This document shows, piece after piece, positions 26,413 through 47,652 of a stretch of 64,000 bases of DNA (the first letter of the stretch is position 1; the number at the start of each line of letters is the position of its first letter). The notes under the pieces were generated by a model. That model worked only from the letters and a program-made list of their open reading frames with translations. It ran no database searches and was not told the origin of the DNA. A program made the translations under genes and the position numbers. This DNA comes from Polaromonas sp. (lineage in GTDB: Bacteria; Pseudomonadota; Gammaproteobacteria; Burkholderiales; Burkholderiaceae_C). The stretch is from assembly GCF_029945685.1 (NCBI RefSeq), contig NZ_JAQSDA010000020.1, positions 550,044-614,043 of the forward strand, in the 5' to 3' direction.

Positions 26413-28302
26413 CTAGCTCACGACGGGTCCTGGCCAGATACGCAAAGCAGCAACCCAAAGTGAATTTCCTCGCTGAGTAATCTCGTCTTCACCCCAAACG
26501 CTTGCTGAGAGCAAGCTCCGATTTAAATGTAGGTTCGTGTGCGATAAAAATAAGTCCTTCTTCACTTCAAAACTATAGTTTTTTGCCGCTCGATTTGTTC
26601 CGTAGTGCAATAAGGTGAGGTTTCCGAAAGTAGGGATCAGTTGCTCACGCTTCGCAATTGCCGCTTGTTTAGCCGTTCGTGCATCGGTTGAAATAAACCC
26701 GGAATTAACGTCAACCACCTCTTGTGCCGAAGCTACTGACCCGTCTCCAAGCGGCCAATGCTCAGTCCAGCTTTGCGGCAGCATGTGGTCAATATCCAAA
26801 CTATCAAGCGATGGGGTGATAGGCTCCTCAGATCGCTCAGTTCGCAAGGCGTTCTCCAACTCCACTAGCACCGAACGCATTTTGGCCGTATCCAAGTGTC
26901 CTCCATACATGGGACTACCCACAAAATGGCGCAAAAATTCGTCGTCTCGTGGCCACCGTCCAGCATCCCCTGAAAACGCCTTTAGTGCTTCAGACAAGCT
27001 ACTAGACGTGAGGGGGCTACCCTTAAGATTTCGAAGTACCTGCAAAAATACCTTGTTATAGTTTTTGTTCGTCAACTTACAAATTGCACGTCTTATAAGG
27101 TATGAACCAAGGGTGTTGAACATCTCATTTTGTTCAGCTTCGGAGCCGCCAGACCGTGCAATTGCGAGTGCGAGTACATAAGTCGTACTAGCATCCCACT
27201 GTGCAAAACGCTTACCAAAATGGCCAATCGGGGCCTTCGGATTTCCGTCCAACAGGGCTTCATAGGAGTCGGCATATTCATCCAAGAGATGAAGTTGACC
27301 TTCTGCACTAATTCCCGTAGCTTTCACATATCGCTGATACTCAGCATAAATTCGTCCCTGGTCTACTTCATCCCGCAATTCCGCTTGCAATACAGTTTGA
27401 ACAAACCATTCGGTCCTGGGCCGATTCAGGCGACCCCTGCGTTCGTTGGACTTCCATCCCCTACTTTCATAGCGGCTCCAAAGCTCGGTATATAACGCAG
27501 CAGCATCAGATCCTTCCGCCTCAGCATTCAGAAAAACATAATTTCTAATCAAATCGGTGGCAGTGAGTTCAACCCCGTGCCCATTTAAAGTCTCAAAAAT
27601 TACTTGCGCATCATCCTTCGCATCGAGCGTAATTGCAATTATTACAAGATCGTCCAACACGGCAGACACCAACGCTTCAGATGCCTCGTTTGGCGGACTG
27701 TCAATAGTCTTCATCCAGGCAGTCATCTGCTCTGCGAAATACCAAATAGCTGCGAGTGCTGGCGGGTGATTGATTCCAACTTTTTTCAGTGTCGCTTGCT
27801 GAGTGAAATGCTCAGGAAAATCACGTCGCAGATCGTCAAACGACGTAGATACGATGGCACGCTCATAGGCCCCCCGGTCATAAAACGTTGGCCAAACCTT
27901 AAAAGGCTCAACAGATTTATCGCGCATGTTTCGCAAGTCAGAGTTCTGCAGGCATGTTTCAACTGCCGGAAGGAGCTCAACGCAATCGGTATTACGCAAA
28001 ACGATGGTGAGCGCAGCTAGAGCGAATTGAAGCGTTGTAATCCGTTGTTGTCCATCAATAATGTGAACTTTTTCAACGCCCAGTATCTTCTTGCGCTCTT
28101 GCGGCTCCAAGACTATTGCGCCCATAAAGTGAGGCGTCGGTGGCAAATCAGCCAATCGTGCTTCTGCTTTCTGCTGGATGTCCAACCACAGGCGAGACCA
28201 TTGATCCTGTTTACTCCAAACGTAAGCACGCTGGTAAAACGGAACGCAATACTGGCGCTCAGGTTTAAAGAGTTGATGAACCGAAGTGCGGTCAGAATCC
28301 AT
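26413..28302 (-). CDS. GmrSD-like DUF262/DUF1524 (HNH) protein
   Basis: A 629-residue fusion of the two domains of type IV GmrS/GmrD-style restriction. The N-terminal DUF262 has YCVPFYQRAYVW (18-29) and the nucleotide-binding DGQQR (83-87), which is followed by ITTLQ. The C-terminal DUF1524 has an HNH-type DIDHMLPQSW (503-512) and GNLTLLHYGTNRAAKN (560-575). GmrSD enzymes cleave glucosylated or otherwise modified phage DNA with NTP help. It is the last of four same-strand genes; its start is 41 bases after the GIY-YIG gene, so it probably belongs to that operon. A+T content is higher than in the flanks. Confidence 0.9.
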   Translation of the reverse strand: MDSDRTSVHQLFKPERQYCVPFYQRAYVWSKQDQWSRLWLDIQQKAEARLADLPPTPHFMGAIVLEPQERKKILGVEKVHIIDGQQRITTLQFALAALTIVLRNTDCVELLPAVETCLQNSDLRNMRDKSVEPFKVWPTFYDRGAYERAIVSTSFDDLRRDFPEHFTQQATLKKVGINHPPALAAIWYFAEQMTAWMKTIDSPPNEASEALVSAVLDDLVIIAITLDAKDDAQVIFETLNGHGVELTATDLIRNYVFLNAEAEGSDAAALYTELWSRYESRGWKSNERRGRLNRPRTEWFVQTVLQAELRDEVDQGRIYAEYQRYVKATGISAEGQLHLLDEYADSYEALLDGNPKAPIGHFGKRFAQWDASTTYVLALAIARSGGSEAEQNEMFNTLGSYLIRRAICKLTNKNYNKVFLQVLRNLKGSPLTSSSLSEALKAFSGDAGRWPRDDEFLRHFVGSPMYGGHLDTAKMRSVLVELENALRTERSEEPITPSLDSLDIDHMLPQSWTEHWPLGDGSVASAQEVVDVNSGFISTDARTAKQAAIAKREQLIPTFGNLTLLHYGTNRAAKNYSFEVKKDLFLSHTNLHLNRSLLSASVWGEDEITQRGNSLWVAALRIWPGPVVS

Positions 28303-28343
28303 AATGTCCTTCTTTTTATTGAATGTTGATCGATGCGGCTAGA

Positions 28344-29501
28344 TCAATCTTTCAGAACTACCTGCTCAAGGTCACCGTCATAGTGGTAATGAATAATTTC
28401 GCCATTTATAAGTAGCTGAATCGCCAGTTCAATGCTGGCAATAGGAGCGATGAACCACTCTCTTGGAACATGAAGCTTGCCTTGTCCATCTGTGACCTTC
28501 AGTTCCAGGCAGTGCTTTCCAAAGAATGTGTGAAGCAGGTTCTCAAATTTCTGTGGATTGAGGTTGTAGCACTGGAACGCTGAGACAATTTTTACCGGCG
28601 CCATCAAGTAGGTTGGCTCCTTGGCTGCATTCTTAATACGGTCTTCAACTGAAGTCGTGGCAAAGCCAATCTTGAAGAGGTTGGCGATCTTCTTGACCTC
28701 GGGCAATTCGCTTCTGGACTTCAGGACATAAACATAGCCGGTGGACTGGTCATCCGACTTGATGAGTTCCAGCTCCTCCAATGCCTTGTCGTGGCCGTCA
28801 AGGATACGCCGACCAGATGGGTCCTTGTAGAGTTCTGTCGCAAGGGAGCGAAGCAACATGTTGGACTCAGTGCCATTGTCAAAGATGACTCTGAGCCTGG
28901 CATTTACCTTCTTGTTCTTTACTTCCTTCTCGCCCACTTCTGCCACATAACAAACCACTCCATGCAGTACGAAGAAGTGACCTGGTTTGATCTGCTGTTC
29001 ACCCGTAAAAGCCCTCATTTCCCGCATGCCAGCACTAAGCTCTGCGTGACAAGTGACAAATAGCGGCTCAAATTTTTCAAAGTCCTCACACGGCTTGCGA
29101 GAAGCAATTTTGTCAGGCATTTTCATGGTGGATGGAACGTGGCGAAGCTTAAAGATGCTCTCTTCACCTTCGTCCAGTAGCCCTAGGTCGTCGTCCCCAT
29201 AAATATCATCAACAGTCTCAACAAATTTCCCCAAAAGTTGATGGGTGTCAATGGCTCTCAGTGAATCAGATTTGAGCTTACTTGAACGAATGCCAGCTAG
29301 ACGACTATTGAGCTTGAACTCATGCATGTCTGAATGATTGGGCTGAGGCTCACGTCCATTTTTGACAAAGAATTCCTCAATCTCCTTAAATGACGAAACA
29401 AGACGATGGTCTGCCGTCATGGCACCAGTTGATATCGGCTTAACCTTAAGCAATTCAAGGTCGTCGTCAGCCACCAGCTTGAGAAGGTCTTCCTTCTTCA
29501 T
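28344..29501 (-). CDS. T5orf172/GIY-YIG nuclease-domain protein
   Basis: A 385-residue protein with a C-terminal T5orf172 (MUG113-like GIY-YIG) nuclease fold: TGYVYVLKSRS (254-264), LFKIGFATTSVEDRIKNA (275-292, with the conserved Arg), a Glu/His helix FENLLHTFFG (319-328) and PREWF (346-350). The N-terminal 240 residues include a helical region and a beta-rich segment (GHFFVLHGVVCYVAEVG), perhaps DNA- or partner-binding. The start overlaps the helicase stop by 4 bases (ATGA), indicating co-translation. It is the likely nuclease of the methyltransferase-helicase system. Confidence 0.8.
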   Translation of the reverse strand: MKKEDLLKLVADDDLELLKVKPISTGAMTADHRLVSSFKEIEEFFVKNGREPQPNHSDMHEFKLNSRLAGIRSSKLKSDSLRAIDTHQLLGKFVETVDDIYGDDDLGLLDEGEESIFKLRHVPSTMKMPDKIASRKPCEDFEKFEPLFVTCHAELSAGMREMRAFTGEQQIKPGHFFVLHGVVCYVAEVGEKEVKNKKVNARLRVIFDNGTESNMLLRSLATELYKDPSGRRILDGHDKALEELELIKSDDQSTGYVYVLKSRSELPEVKKIANLFKIGFATTSVEDRIKNAAKEPTYLMAPVKIVSAFQCYNLNPQKFENLLHTFFGKHCLELKVTDGQGKLHVPREWFIAPIASIELAIQLLINGEIIHYHYDGDLEQVVLKD

Positions 29502-31417
29502 ACGCCTTGCTGTCTCCGTTGATTTCGAATGTAGATAAGTGCCTCACCCATACGGACTTCAAGGGCATCGGTAGACTGTGGGTTAGGTGCTCTTCCATTG
29601 ATGCGCGTGAACTCCTTCACCTTTGGCCATAGGAGCAATGCCTCCTCCGGTGTCATAACGATACGGGTTGCTTCAATGGCTTCCTGAATGGTCTTCAACA
29701 CACTTGCTGTGACAGATTTGGATAAGATTTCAAAAGCCGACTGGAACGGGTTCACCTTGTCAATGAGGTCAATATGCAAGTCGTCTATGTTCACAAACTT
29801 ACCAGCCATTTTGATGAATCTGCGATCACCGTCCTCCTTAAATTCTCCACTTTTCAAAACAGAGTCGGCAACGATGTGCTGGCGTACTGTCTCAACTTCG
29901 TCGTCCGTCAAATCTGGATAGCGAAGCTTGATGATTTTGGGGATGAGAATTTTGTTGATGACTTCAGGATCAACATTTCCAGGTATTGCCTTGAGCATGG
30001 TGTCATCTTGAAGAATGACTGCCTTCATATCGTTTAGGTCTGACTCAATGATATCTTTGAGCTTCTTTGTGGATGGCTCCTTGAAACCACCGATCTTTAC
30101 TTCGCCTGGTCCTGCCTTGTCGTCATCATTCAGTTTGGTTTTGAACTTGAAGTTCGGCGCAAGAACCTGCTCCATCAGAAGTGAACAAGTAATGGCCTTC
30201 AACATATTGTTTACGGCAACCTTCACAAGATCGTCATGTGCATCAGGCTGCGCAATCAGGTTCGTGAATTGAGCGTGGGACTTATTGGGACTGTCCCGCG
30301 TGCAACGGCCAATGATCTGGATAATTTCCGTCAAAGAGCCTCTGTAGCCGACAGTCAACGCATGTTCACAGAATGACCAGTCAAAGCCCTCTTTCGCCAT
30401 TCCTAAGGCAATGATGAGATCAAGCTCTTCTGGCGTTTTTATTGTCCTCAGAAAATTGACTATTTTGTCTCTGGCTCTAGGTTCATCGTGAACCAAATCG
30501 GCAACACGGATAATTTTTCCGTCAGTGTGCCTCTTGACTGTGATGACCCCAGTTGCAGGGTCTTGGCTTTGCACGACACCAATGATGTCTAAGATCTCGT
30601 CAACTTCTCGGTACTTGTCCTGGGTAGATTCACCCGACCGAACATGTGGAATGTGAAGGATTGTTTTCTTGTCTGTATCCAGTACTTCACCAATCGCACT
30701 GAGATAACGTCTCTGGTAGAAGTGATAGCCAATACCCAATGACTTCATATAGGTGTAGCCGTTCAACTGCTCGTAGTAGTTGTAAGTCACCTTAGTGAAC
30801 TTGGCCTCATCCTCAGGCAACAGCACGGGGACACTGTCACCACGGAAGTAGCTTCCAGTCATCGCAACAATATGCACCTTTGACTTCTGCATGACAGTGC
30901 GCAGCAGGAAGCCAAGCTTGCTGTCAGCATCTGCTGAGACATGGTGGAACTCGTCAATTGCGAGAACACAACCGTCCAATGCTTCCTCTTCAATGGCTTC
31001 GAATGCGAAGCGAAGAGTTGCATGTGTGCAAATCAGAATGTCGCTGTCGTCCTTCAAGAAATTCTTGAATGCCGTAACTTTGCTTTGATCTCCACCTGGT
31101 GTGCAAAGATTGTTCTCAGGCTTCACCACCCAGTCTGTAAAGAACCCATGCTCTGACAGCGGTGTGGAGGCAAATGACGATCCGATAGACCGCTCAGGAA
31201 CAGCAATGATTGCCTTCTTGATTCCTTGGTAATGAATCTTATCCAAGGCGAGGAACATCAATGCACGACTTTTACCTGAAGCAGGTGGAGCTTTCAGTAA
31301 AAGATACTGCTGATTCCTGGCTTCATAAGCCCGAGCCTGCATCTCCCGCATACCCATGTCGTTGAGCTTCGTGCTCTCACCAGTCTGATGGTAGGTGACT
31401 TCGACTAAATTAGGCAT
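29498..31417 (-). CDS. DEAD/DEAH-box (SF2) helicase of a restriction-like operon
   Basis: A 639-residue superfamily 2 helicase: Walker A LLLKAPPASGKSRAL (39-53), Walker B LAIDEFHHV (about 150), motif III VAMTGSYFRGD, and a second RecA domain with LDLIIALGMAKEGFDW and the Arg-finger motif LTEIIQIIGRCTRDS. A long C-terminal helical region (about 430-639) has no recognised domain. It begins 1 base after the methyltransferase stop and overlaps the GIY-YIG gene, so the three are one unit. By comparison with type I, ISP and type III enzymes it may translocate DNA to drive cutting. Confidence 0.88.
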   Translation of the reverse strand: MPNLVEVTYHQTGESTKLNDMGMREMQARAYEARNQQYLLLKAPPASGKSRALMFLALDKIHYQGIKKAIIAVPERSIGSSFASTPLSEHGFFTDWVVKPENNLCTPGGDQSKVTAFKNFLKDDSDILICTHATLRFAFEAIEEEALDGCVLAIDEFHHVSADADSKLGFLLRTVMQKSKVHIVAMTGSYFRGDSVPVLLPEDEAKFTKVTYNYYEQLNGYTYMKSLGIGYHFYQRRYLSAIGEVLDTDKKTILHIPHVRSGESTQDKYREVDEILDIIGVVQSQDPATGVITVKRHTDGKIIRVADLVHDEPRARDKIVNFLRTIKTPEELDLIIALGMAKEGFDWSFCEHALTVGYRGSLTEIIQIIGRCTRDSPNKSHAQFTNLIAQPDAHDDLVKVAVNNMLKAITCSLLMEQVLAPNFKFKTKLNDDDKAGPGEVKIGGFKEPSTKKLKDIIESDLNDMKAVILQDDTMLKAIPGNVDPEVINKILIPKIIKLRYPDLTDDEVETVRQHIVADSVLKSGEFKEDGDRRFIKMAGKFVNIDDLHIDLIDKVNPFQSAFEILSKSVTASVLKTIQEAIEATRIVMTPEEALLLWPKVKEFTRINGRAPNPQSTDALEVRMGEALIYIRNQRRQQGV

Positions 31418-31418
31418 C

Positions 31419-34046
31419 TCAGCTCATTTCCAAATATTGATTAAAAATATAGCTCAGACGCTCTTCATCATCTGCAAAACCTGAGATTCGGAAGCATTGC
31501 TCCACTGCTATATCAAGCTCATGGTGACTTTTTCGAAGGTCATCAGGCATGTCTTCAACATCGTAAAGATCAGAAAGACTTTTCTCGGAGTAAGCCTCCC
31601 TTATTGAAAGCATTTGCAAAACTTTGGTGCGTACCGCAGCCTTAAAAGATTCTTTTGGACTCGGAAACGGATAGTTGTTGTACACGATATCCTTGGAGTA
31701 TCGAAAGTCCTGCTTTATACGACCACAAACAGCATCCACCCATACCATATGCATTCTTGACATCAATACACCATATAAAAATAAGTCATGACTTGCAATA
31801 ATGAGGCAGCTATTTCCAGCGACATATTTTGGAGTGAATAGACCCATAGGTATATATTCACGTTGCGATGATGAATGGCAGGGAATCAGTATGAAGTTCT
31901 GACCTTTGGGTTGTGTGATCTGCGCAAAAAGGTGAGGTATAGCGGCTAGTTGAGGCCGCGACGACGCTTCACGAATCTTTTTCAGCTCAATTACTCTCTT
32001 TGCAATCACGGCAACATCCATATAGCTCTTGCGATCCACATCCTCCAACCAGATACACCAACGATCCGATCCATTCAAATATTCCTTCGCTGAAAGGAAG
32101 GGCTTTATCCATCGCTCGGCCCTACTGTCGCTTTGAACGACTTCTATTTTTTGCTCTGTGGTCAGCAACAACTTTCCGCCATCCGCGGGCATGTTCCCGA
32201 AGTTCATCTCAGGATAGCCAGCAATCTGCTTCGAACGCGAATGCACATACACCGTTCTTGCATCAGCCAAGTATGGATTTATCTGCTTCGCCTCTTTCGC
32301 ATAGCTGTTCCTGTAGATAATTTTTTTACCGGGTCCGACAGCCTTCACCCCGATAATAATTACGACGACTTTTGCATTCTTCTTGGCACTGTTGGACCAT
32401 ACAAAGCTAGTGTGGGCAAAGAAAATTTCTAGATTTTTTTCTAGCACAAGTGGCCATCCAAGAGCAACTTGCTCACCTTGACAAATTGAGTTGGTCGACA
32501 CAAAGGCAAAGGCCGATGAAGTTCCGGATATGTAGGCTGCAGCTTTAACAAACCACGCAAAAATGTAGTCAACACTTTTATAGTCTTCACCAAATACATG
32601 AATAAGATCTGCCGTCTGTTCCTCACTCTGCCTTCTAGACCCTAGATACGGCGGATTTCCCAGAACATAAATTTCCTCATCTTGTGAAATGGGACAGATT
32701 TGCTTCCAATCGGCGCGAGTCGCGTTGGCACAAACAATCTTTCCGCTCGGTTTCAACGGTAATGTCGGTGTGTTTTTCCCGAATTTTTTCATGAACACCA
32801 TGTTCATTTGGTGCTCAGCCAACCACAATGAAAGCATTGCGATTTCATGTGCAAAGTCATCCAGTTCAATGCCAAAGAACTGACTTAGCTGGATTCCCGT
32901 CAATCCGAAATCAAGTTGATGATTTAGTTCACTTAATCGATTGAAAATATCCATTTCAAGTCTGCGAAGTTCCTTATAGGCAATGATCAAGAAGTTTCCT
33001 GATCCGCACGCTGGATCAAAAACTTTTATTCTTGAAATCCGCCGTTGCAAATCCTGCAATCGTTTTTCGCTATCCCTATTTTTCTGGAGTTCCTCGTAAA
33101 GACCATTAAGAAAAAGAGGCTCGATAACCTTCATGATGTTAGCTACTGAGGTGTAGTGCATCCCCATGCTCCCGCGCTGTTCAACGTCAACAACTGCTTG
33201 AAACATCGAACCAAAAATATCTGGATTTATTTCAGACCAGTTCAGATCAAGACCGCATTTGATTAAAAGGTCACGTGAGCGTTTATCAAATTTCGGGACC
33301 TCAATGTTCTGAGCAAACAATCCGCCATTTACATATGGAAAGTCTTTCATGTAAACGGGCGACTTGTCCCGTTTTTCTTGGTTCAAAACGGAGAAGAGGG
33401 TTTGAAGGTACTCAGTTAAGTCAGTTCCATCTGCTGATGTATGCGACTCAATGCTTTTGCTAAACAGCTTGGCCTTGAAGATTTCTGTGTCTTCAGCGAA
33501 ATAACAAAATAGCAATCTTGAGAGAAATACATTAAGCCTGTGCCGATCCTCAACTGTCTCAACCGGATTTCTATCAAGAATCAGGTCATAAAGCTTTGCC
33601 ATTTTTTCGGCTGCTTTGACATCAGCAGGACTGTCTTCCACCTGCTTTGATTTTTCCATTCCTGCCCACGGGAGGAAAAAGTCAAATTTGCTTCCGAGTT
33701 CAACGAATTCCATTTCCAGGTCTTCACCTGTCTTGGTGTCGTATGCACTTATTTTTTCGTAGTCAGTCGCAAGCAAGAACCTGGGCTTGTGCTTTTTGAC
33801 TCCATCAACCAGCTTCATCTGCTTGAGCAGTTCACTGGGTTTCTGACTGTTGGTGGCACTGAAGAAGACATGGCTCTTCCAAAGAACGGAGGTCTTGTCT
33901 TTGGAGAGGTTGTATTCGCCGGCCGCAAGCCTCGTGATGGAAGCTTTAGGCTTACCGTAGGCTGTCAAAAGATCGTAAATGAAATTGGACTGATCGCTGG
34001 TGAGTAGGACTTGGCGTACGTTTTGCTCAATTTGGGCAATGTTCAT
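31419..34046 (-). CDS. MmeI-like class I DNA methyltransferase
   Basis: An 875-residue adenine-type DNA methyltransferase with the general organisation of MmeI/type IIG and PglX-like enzymes. An N-terminal domain (1-130, including RFLLATDYEKISAYD and EFVELGSKFDFFLPWAG) leads to a helical region, then motif I FDPACGSGNFL (343-353), IELDD (393-397), catalytic motif IV NPPYLG (464-469), and a C-terminal target-recognition region. In MmeI the first domain is a nuclease (D-x9-E-x-K); here, by eye, D50 is present but the E-x-K position reads V-F-F, so the domain looks catalytically dead. It heads the operon with the helicase and GIY-YIG genes. Confidence 0.88.
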   Translation of the reverse strand: MNIAQIEQNVRQVLLTSDQSNFIYDLLTAYGKPKASITRLAAGEYNLSKDKTSVLWKSHVFFSATNSQKPSELLKQMKLVDGVKKHKPRFLLATDYEKISAYDTKTGEDLEMEFVELGSKFDFFLPWAGMEKSKQVEDSPADVKAAEKMAKLYDLILDRNPVETVEDRHRLNVFLSRLLFCYFAEDTEIFKAKLFSKSIESHTSADGTDLTEYLQTLFSVLNQEKRDKSPVYMKDFPYVNGGLFAQNIEVPKFDKRSRDLLIKCGLDLNWSEINPDIFGSMFQAVVDVEQRGSMGMHYTSVANIMKVIEPLFLNGLYEELQKNRDSEKRLQDLQRRISRIKVFDPACGSGNFLIIAYKELRRLEMDIFNRLSELNHQLDFGLTGIQLSQFFGIELDDFAHEIAMLSLWLAEHQMNMVFMKKFGKNTPTLPLKPSGKIVCANATRADWKQICPISQDEEIYVLGNPPYLGSRRQSEEQTADLIHVFGEDYKSVDYIFAWFVKAAAYISGTSSAFAFVSTNSICQGEQVALGWPLVLEKNLEIFFAHTSFVWSNSAKKNAKVVVIIIGVKAVGPGKKIIYRNSYAKEAKQINPYLADARTVYVHSRSKQIAGYPEMNFGNMPADGGKLLLTTEQKIEVVQSDSRAERWIKPFLSAKEYLNGSDRWCIWLEDVDRKSYMDVAVIAKRVIELKKIREASSRPQLAAIPHLFAQITQPKGQNFILIPCHSSSQREYIPMGLFTPKYVAGNSCLIIASHDLFLYGVLMSRMHMVWVDAVCGRIKQDFRYSKDIVYNNYPFPSPKESFKAAVRTKVLQMLSIREAYSEKSLSDLYDVEDMPDDLRKSHHELDIAVEQCFRISGFADDEERLSYIFNQYLEMS

Positions 34047-34352: not shown

Positions 34353-34673
34353 CTAGTACAGACGAAGGGTGAGTTTTCCGGCAATCGCAAGTATTGAAAG
34401 GTCCCCCACTTCGTAAGAATTTGAAGATGTCGCACCATTTTTCGGCTTTATCTTTTGCCCTTCTACAACCCATGTGTTGGAGCTGGTTGCACCGTTCTTA
34501 GGTTTTAGCTCCTTGCCGTCCCACACCCAGGTGTTTGAGGAAGTGGCTCCGTTCTTGGGCTTAATTTCCTTCCCATCCATCACCCAGGTGTTTGAGGATG
34601 TGGCCCCATTCTTTGGTTTCAATTCCCTTCCGTCGCAAACCCAATCTCTCGGTAGCTCAATCTTGTTGCTCAT
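34353..34673 (-). CDS. Four-fold beta-flower repeat protein
   Basis: A 106-residue protein made of tandem 19-residue units of the form W-V-x-D-G-x-E-[LI]-K-P-K-N-G-A-T-S-S-N-T, with W at 11, 30, 49 and 68, ended by YEVGDLSILAIAGKLTLRLY. This matches the small 4-fold beta-flower family found in bacteria and phages, whose function is not known. The corresponding 57-bp DNA repeats are still very similar, so the array is young or kept uniform. ATG 34673 was chosen over a longer frame to 34706. It stands upstream of the restriction-like operon on the same strand. Confidence 0.75.
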   Translation of the reverse strand: MSNKIELPRDWVCDGRELKPKNGATSSNTWVMDGKEIKPKNGATSSNTWVWDGKELKPKNGATSSNTWVVEGQKIKPKNGATSSNSYEVGDLSILAIAGKLTLRLY

Positions 34674-34706
34674 ACCATTTCTCCCATAAACGTTCTTAGA
34701 AAACAC

Positions 34707-45102: not shown

Positions 45103-46343
45103 GCGGCCCGCTGAGACAGATCAATGATGTCTGCCCCCTTGCGCAGCTTATCCAGGTAGTCCGCCCACGATTGCATCATGACAGTCCGGTGCTGCAAGTA
45201 TTGGGTGCGGTTGTAGGCTCGGCCATTGGCGTCTTTCACGGCGTGGGCAAGCTGTGCCTCAATCACCAGAGGGTCGCAATCCAGACGTTCTGCCAACATG
45301 GTTCGTGCCGTCGCTCTGAAGCCGTGCCAAGTGTGCACGTCTGGCGTGTAGCCAAGCGTAATCAAAGCCGTTCGGACTGAATTTTCAGATATTGGGCGAT
45401 CATGATTACGCTCACCAGGAAACACCAACACCCCATGGCCAGTCAGGGGGTAAAGATTGCTCAGAATTTCCAAAGCCTGACGAGAGAGCGGAACTTGGTG
45501 AGGGTTGCCGTTTTCCTTACCATCCTTACCGCGTTTCATACGGGCGGCTGGGATTGTCCATAGCGCGTTTTCCAGGTCAATTTCTGCCCAGGCCGCAGCA
45601 CGTAGTTCACCAGGTCTTTGAAACAGCAGCGGAGCTAACTGCAACGCAGAACGGACAATGTGGCCGCCCTTGTACGCCTGAATTGCCCGCAGCATCTCCC
45701 CCAACTTCACTGGGTCAGTGATGGCCGCAAAATGTTTGCCACGGTAGGGAGACAACGCACCTTTCAGATCCGATGTGATATCACGATCTACCCTCCCGGT
45801 AGCTACACCGTAACGCCAGACTTGCCGCGCAAGCATGAGGCCGCGATCAGCAGTTTCGATTGCACCTCGCTCCTCTACTTTGCGAAGTGTTGCAAGCAGC
45901 TCCACCGGCTCGATTGTCTTAAGTCGCCGATCACCTAACCTTGGGAACAAATCACGCTCAAACTGGCGCAATGATCGCTCAGCATGAGCCGTGCTCCATT
46001 GCGACAATTGTTTGCCGTACCACTCCAGGGCAACAACCTTAAAGGTCTCGCCCGCTGGATTGGTTGCTTTGAGCTTCGCGGCCACACGGACCTGAACAGG
46101 ATCGTGGCCTTCAGATTTTTGCAATTTAGCCACGTCCCGAGCACGTCGCGCCGCTGTCAGACTAACGTCTGGATAGCTCCCCAGTGCCATTTGTTTTTCA
46201 ACACCGGCAATTCGGTACTTCCAAAACCAGCGCTTCGAACCGGCTGGGCTGATTTGAAGGTATAACCCGCCGGAATCGCTAAATCGCGCTTGCTTCTTGT
46301 CCGATGGGCACTTGGCGTTTCTACATTGAGCATCGGTCAGCAT
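45099..46343 (-). CDS. P4-type tyrosine integrase
   Basis: A 414-residue site-specific recombinase. It has an N-terminal arm-binding DUF4102 domain (FSDSGGLYLQISPAGSKRWFWKYRIAGVEKQMALGSYPDVSL), a core-binding domain, and catalytic residues Arg243 (FQRPGELR), His340-Arg343 (WHGFRATART), His367 (QLAHAVKD) and Tyr377 (AYNRTQYL). It is oriented away from ssrA, with its start 236 bases from the ssrA 3' end, the usual place for an integrase that uses the tmRNA gene. GTACCCCC-type repeats in between are candidate binding sites. Confidence 0.95.
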   Translation of the reverse strand: MLTDAQCRNAKCPSDKKQARFSDSGGLYLQISPAGSKRWFWKYRIAGVEKQMALGSYPDVSLTAARRARDVAKLQKSEGHDPVQVRVAAKLKATNPAGETFKVVALEWYGKQLSQWSTAHAERSLRQFERDLFPRLGDRRLKTIEPVELLATLRKVEERGAIETADRGLMLARQVWRYGVATGRVDRDITSDLKGALSPYRGKHFAAITDPVKLGEMLRAIQAYKGGHIVRSALQLAPLLFQRPGELRAAAWAEIDLENALWTIPAARMKRGKDGKENGNPHQVPLSRQALEILSNLYPLTGHGVLVFPGERNHDRPISENSVRTALITLGYTPDVHTWHGFRATARTMLAERLDCDPLVIEAQLAHAVKDANGRAYNRTQYLQHRTVMMQSWADYLDKLRKGADIIDLSQRAA

Positions 46344-46455
46344 TGGGGTACAGCTCCAGCATGGGGGATAAAAAAGCGCTTTTTAAGCAGAAAATGGGGG
46401 TACAAGTCCCAGAAAAATAACTAAAAATTTGCTTGTACCCCCGTTTGTACCCCCT
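46344..46455. other. Right attachment region with GTACCCCC arm-site candidates
   Basis: The integrase upstream region carries GGGGTACAGCTCC (46345), GGGGGTACAAG (46396) and GCTTGTACCCCCGTTTGTACCCCC (46431-46454, given here as adjoining units), that is, at least four copies of G5TAC or its complement. GCTTGTACCCCCG is shared with 17025-17037 at the far end. Confidence 0.65.
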
Positions 46456-46530
46456 CTTTAAACAGGCTGTCAATGGACCTTAGCGCACCTGCATAGACAG
46501 TCAAACCTCATAACTAATTGATTTACAAAG

Positions 46531-46567
46531 AAAAAAGGCCGCTTACTGGATGTCAGTAAACGGCCTT
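46531..46567 (-). terminator. ssrA transcription terminator
   Basis: On the minus strand AAGGCCGTTTACTG-acat-CCAGTAAGCGGCCTT followed by TTTTCTTTG forms a long stem 12 bases past the ssrA 3' end. A related hairpin occurs at 16896-16929 at the opposite island end. Confidence 0.85.
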
Positions 46568-46578
46568 GGACGTTATAG

Positions 46579-46601
46579 TGGTGGAGCTGGGGGGATTTGA
46601 A
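46579..46601. other. Candidate right attachment site in the ssrA 3' end
   Basis: TGGTGGAGCTGGGG then GGATTTGAA is the complement of the tmRNA 3' end (T arm and CCA). The similar TGGTGGGCTGGGG at 16941 is the presumed partner. The exact crossover cannot be fixed by eye because the left copy has diverged. Confidence 0.65.
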
Positions 46602-46965
46602 CCCCCGTCCGCAAGCCTTGTTCGGGCAGATCTACATGTTTAGCGGTCTGATTTGAGTCTCGCCACCTGTGTCGCGCAGTCGCACGCTACACAGGACGCC
46701 AGCACCCTATTTTCTTGCCCCGGGTTAAGGTACCCAGCCCGGAGCCAGCCGATGAAATTATCTTTACAGCCGGGAGCATTTAACTTGCGTCAAACACCCC
46801 TTGCCCAGCCCATCGGCCTGCTGTTGTAAAGCTCACTGGCAATTAAGCAGCGAGTGCGAAACGTTCGTCGTTTGCAGTTAGTTTGTTTGAATCAGTTTTA
46901 CGAGCACACTCAGCTCGACATGCACCACACCGCGTCCGAACCCACGTCGAAACCAATGCAGCCCC
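46579..46965 (-). ncRNA. ssrA: Transfer-messenger RNA (tmRNA)
   Basis: A one-piece tmRNA of about 387 bases that rescues stalled ribosomes and adds a degradation tag. The 5' end GGGGCTGCATTGGTTTCGACG pairs with the 3' end CCCCCAGCTCCACCA (7 bp with one G-U), and the T arm contains GGGGGTTCAAATCCCCC. The tag reading frame (46843-46875) is GCAAACGACGAACGTTTCGC and onward, giving ANDERFALAA and a TAA stop, a beta-proteobacterial-type tag. The gene's 3' end is the island's integration target and remains intact next to the integrase. Confidence 0.97.
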
Positions 46966-46977
46966 AAGCCAAGTAGT

Positions 46978-47652
46978 TTAAGCCATCCGCAGCAAATTCA
47001 AGAGGGACGACGGCGAAACAATGGTGGCGTCGGCCTTCCAGTGCCGGGTATCGGCCAGCGCACCGAGGTAACCGTAGGCTGCGGCCACGGTCGGCATGCC
47101 GGCCGCGCGACCGGCGACGATGTCCCGCTCGTCATCCCCGACATAAATGCAGCGCCCGGGCTGGAGCTGGAGCTGGCGGGCAGCTTCGAGCAACGGCGCC
47201 GGATGCGGCTTGGCGTGCGGCGTGGTGTCGCCGCTGATGATGGTCTGCGCGGAGCCAAACAGCGGCATCCTGCGTGTCAGCGGCAGGGTAAAACGCGCCG
47301 ATTTGTTGGTCACCACGCCCCACTTGAGCCCGGATCGGTCAATGTGTGCGATCAGCTCAGCCACGCCGTCGAAGGCATAGGTGCGCTCGGTCATGCAGGC
47401 TTCGTAATTGGCGAAAAACTCTTCTTTCAGGTCGCCGTAACCGTCATCGTCGGGGCTGAGGCCGAAAGCAATGCCAATCATGCCGCGCGCACCCGCACCG
47501 GCCATGGGCCGGTAATCTGTCAGCGGCAGCGACGCCAGACCGCGGTCGGTGCGCATCTTGTCGGCGGCTGCGCCCAGGTCGGGCGCACTGTCGATCAGGG
47601 TGCCGTCGAGGTCGAACAGCACGGCCTCAATATCGTTGAATATCGGCTCCAT
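46978..47652 (-). CDS. gph: Phosphoglycolate phosphatase
   Basis: A 224-residue haloacid-dehalogenase enzyme removing 2-phosphoglycolate. The HAD motifs are VLFDLDGTLIDSAPDL (nucleophile Asp about 14), VVTNKSARF (motif II), KPHPAPLLEAA with Lys (motif III) and YVGDDERDIVAGRAAGMPTVAAAYGY (motif IV). It is directly downstream of ubiG on the same strand (stop of ubiG at 47656, start of gph at 47652), and the pair is common in proteobacteria. It originally sat next to ssrA. Confidence 0.93.
   Translation of the reverse strand: MEPIFNDIEAVLFDLDGTLIDSAPDLGAAADKMRTDRGLASLPLTDYRPMAGAGARGMIGIAFGLSPDDDGYGDLKEEFFANYEACMTERTYAFDGVAELIAHIDRSGLKWGVVTNKSARFTLPLTRRMPLFGSAQTIISGDTTPHAKPHPAPLLEAARQLQLQPGRCIYVGDDERDIVAGRAAGMPTVAAAYGYLGALADTRHWKADATIVSPSSLLNLLRMA

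Follow-up and report, generated by a model that had tools for sequence, protein, structure and literature searches.

A DnmA-YeeB-YeeC-type gene trio followed by a GmrSD-like gene in Polaromonas: a probable restriction-modification system with methylation, motor and cutting on separate proteins

We have analysed a block of four genes within a 64,000-nucleotide stretch of Polaromonas sp. DNA (hereafter the window). The first three genes probably make up a DnmA-YeeB-YeeC-type restriction-modification system, which resembles types I and III and is built of separate chains, and the GmrSD-like fourth gene is probably independent, mobile cargo. Judged from the sequences, the trio is best read as an ATP-dependent, type-I-like system whose motor and nuclease are separate proteins, with an independent type IV enzyme beside it. 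Two proposals of a preliminary description of this DNA are supported in this way: that a restriction-modification-like system is split here into methylation, motor and cutting polypeptides, and that a type IV-like GmrSD gene adjoins it.

The four open reading frames, with the coordinates and spacings given in that description, are confirmed on the minus strand (Table 1). The methyltransferase and helicase genes are separated by 1 nt, the helicase and nuclease genes overlap by 4 nt, and the GmrSD-like gene starts 41 nt after the nuclease gene. Pfam matches cover the MmeI_N, hel, Mtase, TRD and C domains in the first protein, DEAD and ResIII above the cut-off and Helicase_C under it in the second, MUG113 and T5orf172 (GIY-YIG type) in the third, and GmrSD_N and GmrSD_C in the fourth. 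The expected motifs are also present: DPACGSG and NPPY in the methyltransferase; APPASGKS, DEFH, MTGS and QIIGRCTR in the helicase; GYVYVL, FKIGF, EDRIKNA and KFENLLH in the nuclease; DGQQR (DUF262) and DIDH (DUF1524, HNH-type) in the GmrSD-like protein, where a pattern search for the later asparagines of the nuclease domain gave no match. A ribosome-site-like sequence, AAGAAGGA, lies 5-12 nt before the ATG of the GmrSD-like gene, and no terminator-like site was found on the operon strand between this gene and the nuclease gene, so a single transcript for all four genes is possible.

Table 1 The four genes of the block, with their positions in the window and the evidence for each assignment
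Feature	Position	Strand	Evidence
MmeI-family adenine DNA methyltransferase (DnmA/YeeA-type), 875 aa	31419..34046	-	Pfam, PADLOC, MmeI 5hr4 alignment, motifs
SF2 helicase / putative DNA translocase (YeeB-type), 639 aa	29498..31417	-	Pfam, motifs, conservation, SF2 fold
GIY-YIG / T5orf172 nuclease (YeeC-type), 385 aa	28344..29501	-	Pfam, invariant residues, motifs
GmrSD-like (DUF262 + DUF1524) type IV-type endonuclease, 629 aa	26413..28302	-	Pfam, PADLOC, motifs; accessory, outside conserved core

Relatives of the helicase are numerous. The search of plasmids gave 263 records, and in 153 of these a single place covers at least 80% of the query; the scan of species genomes gave at least 558 confirmed relatives; IMG/VR contributed 43; and 34 of the 399 genomes of the order have a match, own genome included, one of which is weak (G383, E 2.9e-5). 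We have compared 165 loci (8 plasmid, 80 genome, 43 viral and 34 whole-genome), a set in which near-copies were kept (L134 and L142, for example, are alike) and in which the 80 genome loci are a non-random choice, namely the best 80 of the at least 558 relatives. According to phmmer calls with the window proteins, by which divergent methyltransferases, nucleases and GmrSD proteins may be missed, a methyltransferase gene lies upstream of the helicase in 141 of the 165 loci and a GIY-YIG gene downstream of it in 159. This fixed order rules out chance adjacency of the trio. The neighbourhood comparison, suggested earlier as a check on four-gene synteny, speaks for the trio and against the fourth gene, which has a counterpart at the same place in 1 of the 165 loci.

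The window has the dnmA-yeeB-yeeC layout, that is, a methyltransferase without nuclease motif, an SF2 helicase and a T5orf172/GIY-YIG gene on the same strand. The trio had been thought unplaceable among known layouts, but it is this published arrangement, and the best 80 genome loci of the at least 558 relatives come from no fewer than 16 named phyla, including an archaeal one (four loci carry no phylum label).

Among the 24 loci where no upstream methyltransferase was detected, 14 have at most 552 nt there, nine have 853-2388 nt, and one (L201) has 6958 nt; in the ten loci with at least 853 nt, the methyltransferase may be absent or set apart. The L201 locus holds the helicase and GIY-YIG genes with no methyltransferase detected in these 6958 nt. 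A rotated order, with the helicase, the GIY-YIG gene and then the methyltransferase downstream, is seen in L050:1126-7013. As for the six loci without a downstream nuclease, L090, L135 and L204 end at the edge, and L113, L144 and L145 do not.

Across 64 sequences, the residues of the helicase motifs show little or no variation, and G255, Y258, G279, R288 and E320 of the nuclease are invariant in 92, which indicates strong selection on both proteins. Neither had a solved relative that a sequence search could find. The predicted helicase model (pLDDT 79.5, pTM 0.67) matches SF2 proteins generally, with HsdR only at rank 33 among its structure matches. The predicted nuclease model (mean pLDDT 88.9, pTM 0.49) gave no fold match in the PDB at E 0.001 or better; its weak matches are to what we take to be SH3-barrel-like proteins. 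PADLOC also matches the two proteins weakly, with E values of 4.3e-7 for the helicase and 8e-5 for the nuclease. In Proteus (L015), Acinetobacter (L016 and L054) and a viral contig (L110), the GIY-YIG gene is matched as two open reading frames of about 290 and 915-960 nt, and in L061 it is also split, at another place.

According to the accessible text of PMC7261158, DnmA of Bacillus subtilis places m6A at the 3' adenine of GACGAG and is one of the MmeI homologues that lack a nuclease motif and have yeeB- and yeeC-like genes on their flanks; the suggestion of a type I-like system is older (Morgan 2009, as cited there). The accessible part of PMC9973331 adds that the dnmA-yeeB-yeeC cluster is conserved in other species, that deletion of dnmA, yeeB or yeeC in B. 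subtilis left the susceptibility to three phages unchanged, and, in a study it cites, that deletion of the dnmA and yeeB homologues in V. crassostreae led to higher sensitivity to some phages. Plasmid uptake was also unchanged in the B. subtilis dnmA deletion, and the authors have called the cluster a relic (PMC7261158 and PMC9973331, as far as their accessible parts go). One may ask, then, whether the window copy is likewise a relic with an orphan methyltransferase, in which genes 2 and 3 have ceased to restrict and the locus is kept for a role of its methylation in gene regulation, the proposal made for B. subtilis. The deletion tests just cited, with their lack of effect on phages or plasmid uptake in that species, favour this explanation. 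On the other hand, all three window proteins keep their motifs, the active-site residues of the nuclease and the helicase are invariant across the aligned relatives, and the V. crassostreae proteins contain stretches that are missing from YeeB and YeeC of B. subtilis (PMC9973331, accessible part). Overall, we regard a relic as an unlikely explanation of the window copy, and a working restriction system as the preferred one.

The fourth gene is a different matter. Its product is matched by the PADLOC mREase_IV model (E 1.1e-190) and has the marks of the GmrSD type IV family, a DUF262 domain with DGQQR and a DUF1524 domain with HNH-type residues. Members of this family cut DNA with modified cytosines, according to the available portions of PMC4619093 and PMC11411939. 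Among the 165 loci, a co-directional GmrSD gene follows the trio only in L057, of Flavobacterium xueshanense, and its product is 26% identical. Two further loci have the DUF262 motif: in L141 it lies upstream of the methyltransferase, and in L202 it follows the nuclease but is on the other strand. The sequence reaches at least 1.5 kb beyond the nuclease in 138 loci; in 42 of them a co-directional open reading frame of 110 aa or more begins within 150 nt, and GmrSD_N matches one of these 42. Seen from the other side, none of ten GmrSD relatives has a core gene of the trio nearby, with flanks of 1.5 to 6 kb or more compared and two of the ten beginning at a contig or record end. The seven on plasmids have other surroundings: a solitary place among plasmid genes, a region of phage genes, the vicinity of type I genes, or a position opposite a helicase and a kinase.

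These counts bear directly on the claim that the four genes are one unit, with the GmrSD-like protein working together with the trio. The claim can draw on the shared strand, the 41-nt spacing, the ribosome-site-like sequence and the missing terminator-like site between genes 3 and 4, on the similarly low GC of all four genes compared with six other island genes, and on the second, distant GmrSD directly after the trio in L057. Set against it are the single co-directional case among 165 loci, the different placement of the DUF262 motif in L141 and L202, the absence of core genes near the ten GmrSD relatives and the settings of the seven on plasmids. We have therefore rejected four-gene synteny as a conserved unit, and consider an integrated four-gene system quite improbable. 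Judged from gene neighbourhoods, the GmrSD-like gene is a rare add-on, separate from the conserved trio.

Attachment of such genes to other systems is known. The available portions of two papers place the DUF262 gene RloF in type I loci (PMC4619093), and, for V. cholerae, TgvAB within a type I locus, with BrxU assigned to BREX and HEC-06 to Hma (PMC11411939). A joint attack on unmodified and modified phage DNA, which the preliminary description suggested as a possible ability of the four genes, has already been proposed for the GmrSD-like TgvAB (PMC11411939). Since the gene is rare beside the trio, and GmrSD-like genes attached elsewhere have been published, gene 4 is a familiar kind of accessory at a new location.

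The block lies inside a low-GC island, at about 17-46.5 kb of the window, with a tyrosine integrase beside a tmRNA gene at its end; the integrative element is placed at about 17000-46965. A Pfam scan has found among its other genes a Sak annealing protein, YqaJ, DUF932 and SNase, and these look phage- or plasmid-derived. The element also has a 1157-aa protein with a helicase domain. The GC of the four genes (0.436-0.485) is lower than that of six other measured island genes (0.538-0.585) and of two genes outside the island (0.624-0.642), a contrast that fits the four genes being a cargo block. Just upstream of the block, a 117-aa open reading frame at 34353-34706 on the minus strand has four near-identical repeats of the PKNGATSSNTWV type; its GC (0.475) is similar to that of the four genes, and it has no Pfam match. 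It was rejected as a conserved upstream partner, the repeat motif being absent from the open reading frames of the relatives' loci then compared. We have also searched 149 genomes for relatives of two island proteins. The YqaJ protein has matches in 12 genomes besides the own one, at most 38% identical, and the 1157-aa protein has one weak match besides the own genome; these genomes thus offered no near relative of the island from which to read the borders of the cargo. A search for the left end of the island, with up to three mismatches allowed, gave no second copy of the 3' end of the tmRNA, and the comparison of 46300-47000 with 14000-46200 gave a single exact match of at least 13 nt, which is 13 nt long.

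The methyltransferase deserves a closer look, as its class depends on its N-terminus. Residues 84-874 align to MmeI (PDB 5hr4) with an E value of 3.9e-174 in phmmer, and the MmeI_N profile matches residues 1-158, which assigns the N-terminal domain to the MmeI family. No D-x(8-11)-E-x-K nuclease motif occurs in the first 115 residues, the loss of the active site being judged by this motif since phmmer left residues 1-83 unaligned to the MmeI N-terminus. Such a string is present in 8 of 64 methyltransferase relatives, at unconserved places. By the MmeI alignment and the missing motif, the window protein should methylate and not cut. The view of gene 1 as a classical single-protein enzyme of type IIG/IIL, with genes 2 and 3 as chance neighbours, as the naming by PADLOC would have it (REase_MTase_IIG, E 1.6e-294, besides the MmeI_N match), is hardly credible given that the nuclease motif is missing, in DnmA as well (PMC7261158, accessible part), and that genes 2 and 3 accompany the methyltransferase in nearly all relatives compared. 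Since the PADLOC type IIG model matches a methyltransferase without nuclease motif, defence catalogues may miscall the class.

Motif IV reads NPPY, NPPF or NPSY in 62 of the 64 relatives. In our reading of the 5hr4 alignment, K778 and D780 of the window protein correspond to MmeI residues 806 and 808, and the equivalent of residue 645 is M619. In the recognition code given in the accessible part of PMC4833311, K and D at 806/808 specify G at position 6, and M at 645 shifted position 2 of the MmeI site to A. G at position 6 is accordingly what K778/D780 would predict for the window enzyme, and M619 would predict A at position 2; with A at position 5 as well, the predicted m6A motif would end in AG. 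The 806/808 pair is KD in 31 of the 64 relatives, ER in 23 and another pair in 10. In addition, conservation among the 64 is lower in the TRD (0.391) than in the methyltransferase domain (0.515). The variable recognition positions and the less conserved TRD are what one would expect if target sites differ between relatives. In two viral contigs (L116:5336-7981 and L128:5365-7965), the methyltransferase of the trio lacks motif I (LNPDSSSG there) and motif IV (NTQY), with the helicase and GIY-YIG genes still present; this type is possibly a methylation-free variant.

If the preferred reading is right, the MmeI-like protein would provide both site recognition and methylation, and would mark one adenine in an asymmetric host site of about 6 bp. 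At an unmarked site, it would recruit the SF2 helicase and the GIY-YIG protein. The helicase would drive ATP-dependent movement along the DNA, and the GIY-YIG protein would cut, probably when two complexes meet. Type III enzymes offer the analogy for cutting by two convergent complexes. Such a need should exist here, since only one strand of the site would have the target adenine, so that replication leaves one daughter unmarked. The GmrSD-like protein would act independently on DNA with modified bases, as mobile cargo that joined the window copy.

The relatives have revealed a further feature, an insertion slot between the methyltransferase and helicase genes. The gap between these two genes exceeds 300 nt in 54 of 141 loci, compared with 1 of 159 for the helicase-nuclease gap (Fisher p 9e-20, ignoring relatedness), and gaps are understated, being measured between stop-to-stop frames. 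Slot loci occur among the relatives L026-L111 and L204-L230 and some others, and the slot of the window is empty. In 44 of the 54, the operon strand has an open reading frame of 120 aa or more, four have one on the other strand only, and six have none; these are counts of reading frames, which alone are not proof of genes. Among the 76 slot proteins scanned, the most frequent matches are to HATPase_c_4 (RecG C-terminal, 13), SLFN_AlbA_2 (12), RhuM (10), DUF1016_N (7), YhcG_C (6) and Fic (5), with single matches to AbiJ, Abi_C, FRG, PIN and AAA_13. Genes of a defence type, such as Schlafen/AlbA, RhuM, YhcG and Fic, are therefore frequent occupants of the slot. An OLD-like match in the L030 slot is not significant (E 0.026) and was left out of the counts. 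On a 138-row helicase tree made with FastTree, with long branches flagged, 33 changes between an occupied and an empty slot are required, and 24 of these changes are forced by well-supported branches. Such slots are present in 20 of 32 Bacteroidota, 14 of 31 whole-genome and 10 of 34 viral loci.

Our literature search, which was broader than this topic and covered few subscription journals, found no report of the slot, so it is possibly new. Type I loci are already known to have accessory genes within them (available portions of PMC4619093 and PMC11411939). We would tentatively propose, as an idea that may well prove wrong, that DnmA-YeeB-YeeC systems are a distinct ATP-dependent restriction class in which the slot between the methyltransferase gene and the closely linked helicase-nuclease pair has repeatedly, in different lineages, taken up a second defence effector (Schlafen/AlbA, RhuM, the YhcG nuclease, Fic and a partner, or genes of the Abi or AAA type) that might step in when restriction is blocked, and that the back-up of the window, GmrSD, sits at the 3' side instead.

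The trio is a documented but under-studied restriction-like system, and a common one, both in the order (34 of 399 genomes) and across the at least 16 phyla noted for the best 80 of the at least 558 relatives. With its motifs intact, the window copy is a good test case for restriction by a split motor-plus-GIY-YIG design. The slot in relatives would connect the DnmA-YeeB-YeeC class with type I loci and their R-linked accessory genes.

Compared with known systems, the trio shares parts with several. The likeness to the type IIL enzyme MmeI extends over residues 84-874 of the methyltransferase. In MmeI, as far as the sources at hand describe it, the endonuclease motif is in the same chain, as belongs to type IIG/IIL enzymes; the motif search found none in the first 115 residues of the window protein, and helicase and nuclease genes follow instead. 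Type I systems, like the trio, combine methylation, motor and nuclease, and the sources at hand also place DUF262 genes (RloF) in their loci. The trio differs from them in having recognition and methylation on one chain, motor and nuclease on two, and a nuclease of the GIY-YIG type. The type I subunit set is not present, as Pfam gave no match to Methylase_S or HSDR_N in the four proteins, and N6_Mtase matches gene 1 barely above its cut-off (22.9 vs 20.4 bits). In type III enzymes, Res fuses the nuclease to the helicase; ResIII does match helicase residues 22-188 (E 9.2e-5), but the window nuclease is a separate GIY-YIG protein, which sets the trio apart from that type. BREX has PglZ and BrxC as hallmarks, and DISARM has DrmA, DrmB and DrmC. 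The listed matches of the four proteins include none of these, nor does the Pfam scan of ten other island genes, and the likeness of the four proteins to BREX and DISARM is limited to methyltransferase-level similarity to DrmMI and PglX. The literature that we searched gave no restriction type of its own for the trio.

For the fourth gene, the comparison is with TgvAB, BrxU and HEC-06, in which, by the partial sources above, a GmrSD-like enzyme is attached to a methylation-based system, as here; P0004 matches the HEC-06 model (E 3.4e-53). TgvAB differs in being two proteins encoded inside an operon, and the host systems in these cases are type I, BREX or Hma. For the trio itself, dnmA(yeeA)-yeeB-yeeC of Bacillus subtilis agrees in all three families and in their order (accessible parts of PMC7261158 and PMC9973331). 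The B. subtilis copy has toxin-antitoxin genes beside it and no restriction shown in those parts, whereas the window copy has a GmrSD gene after the trio.
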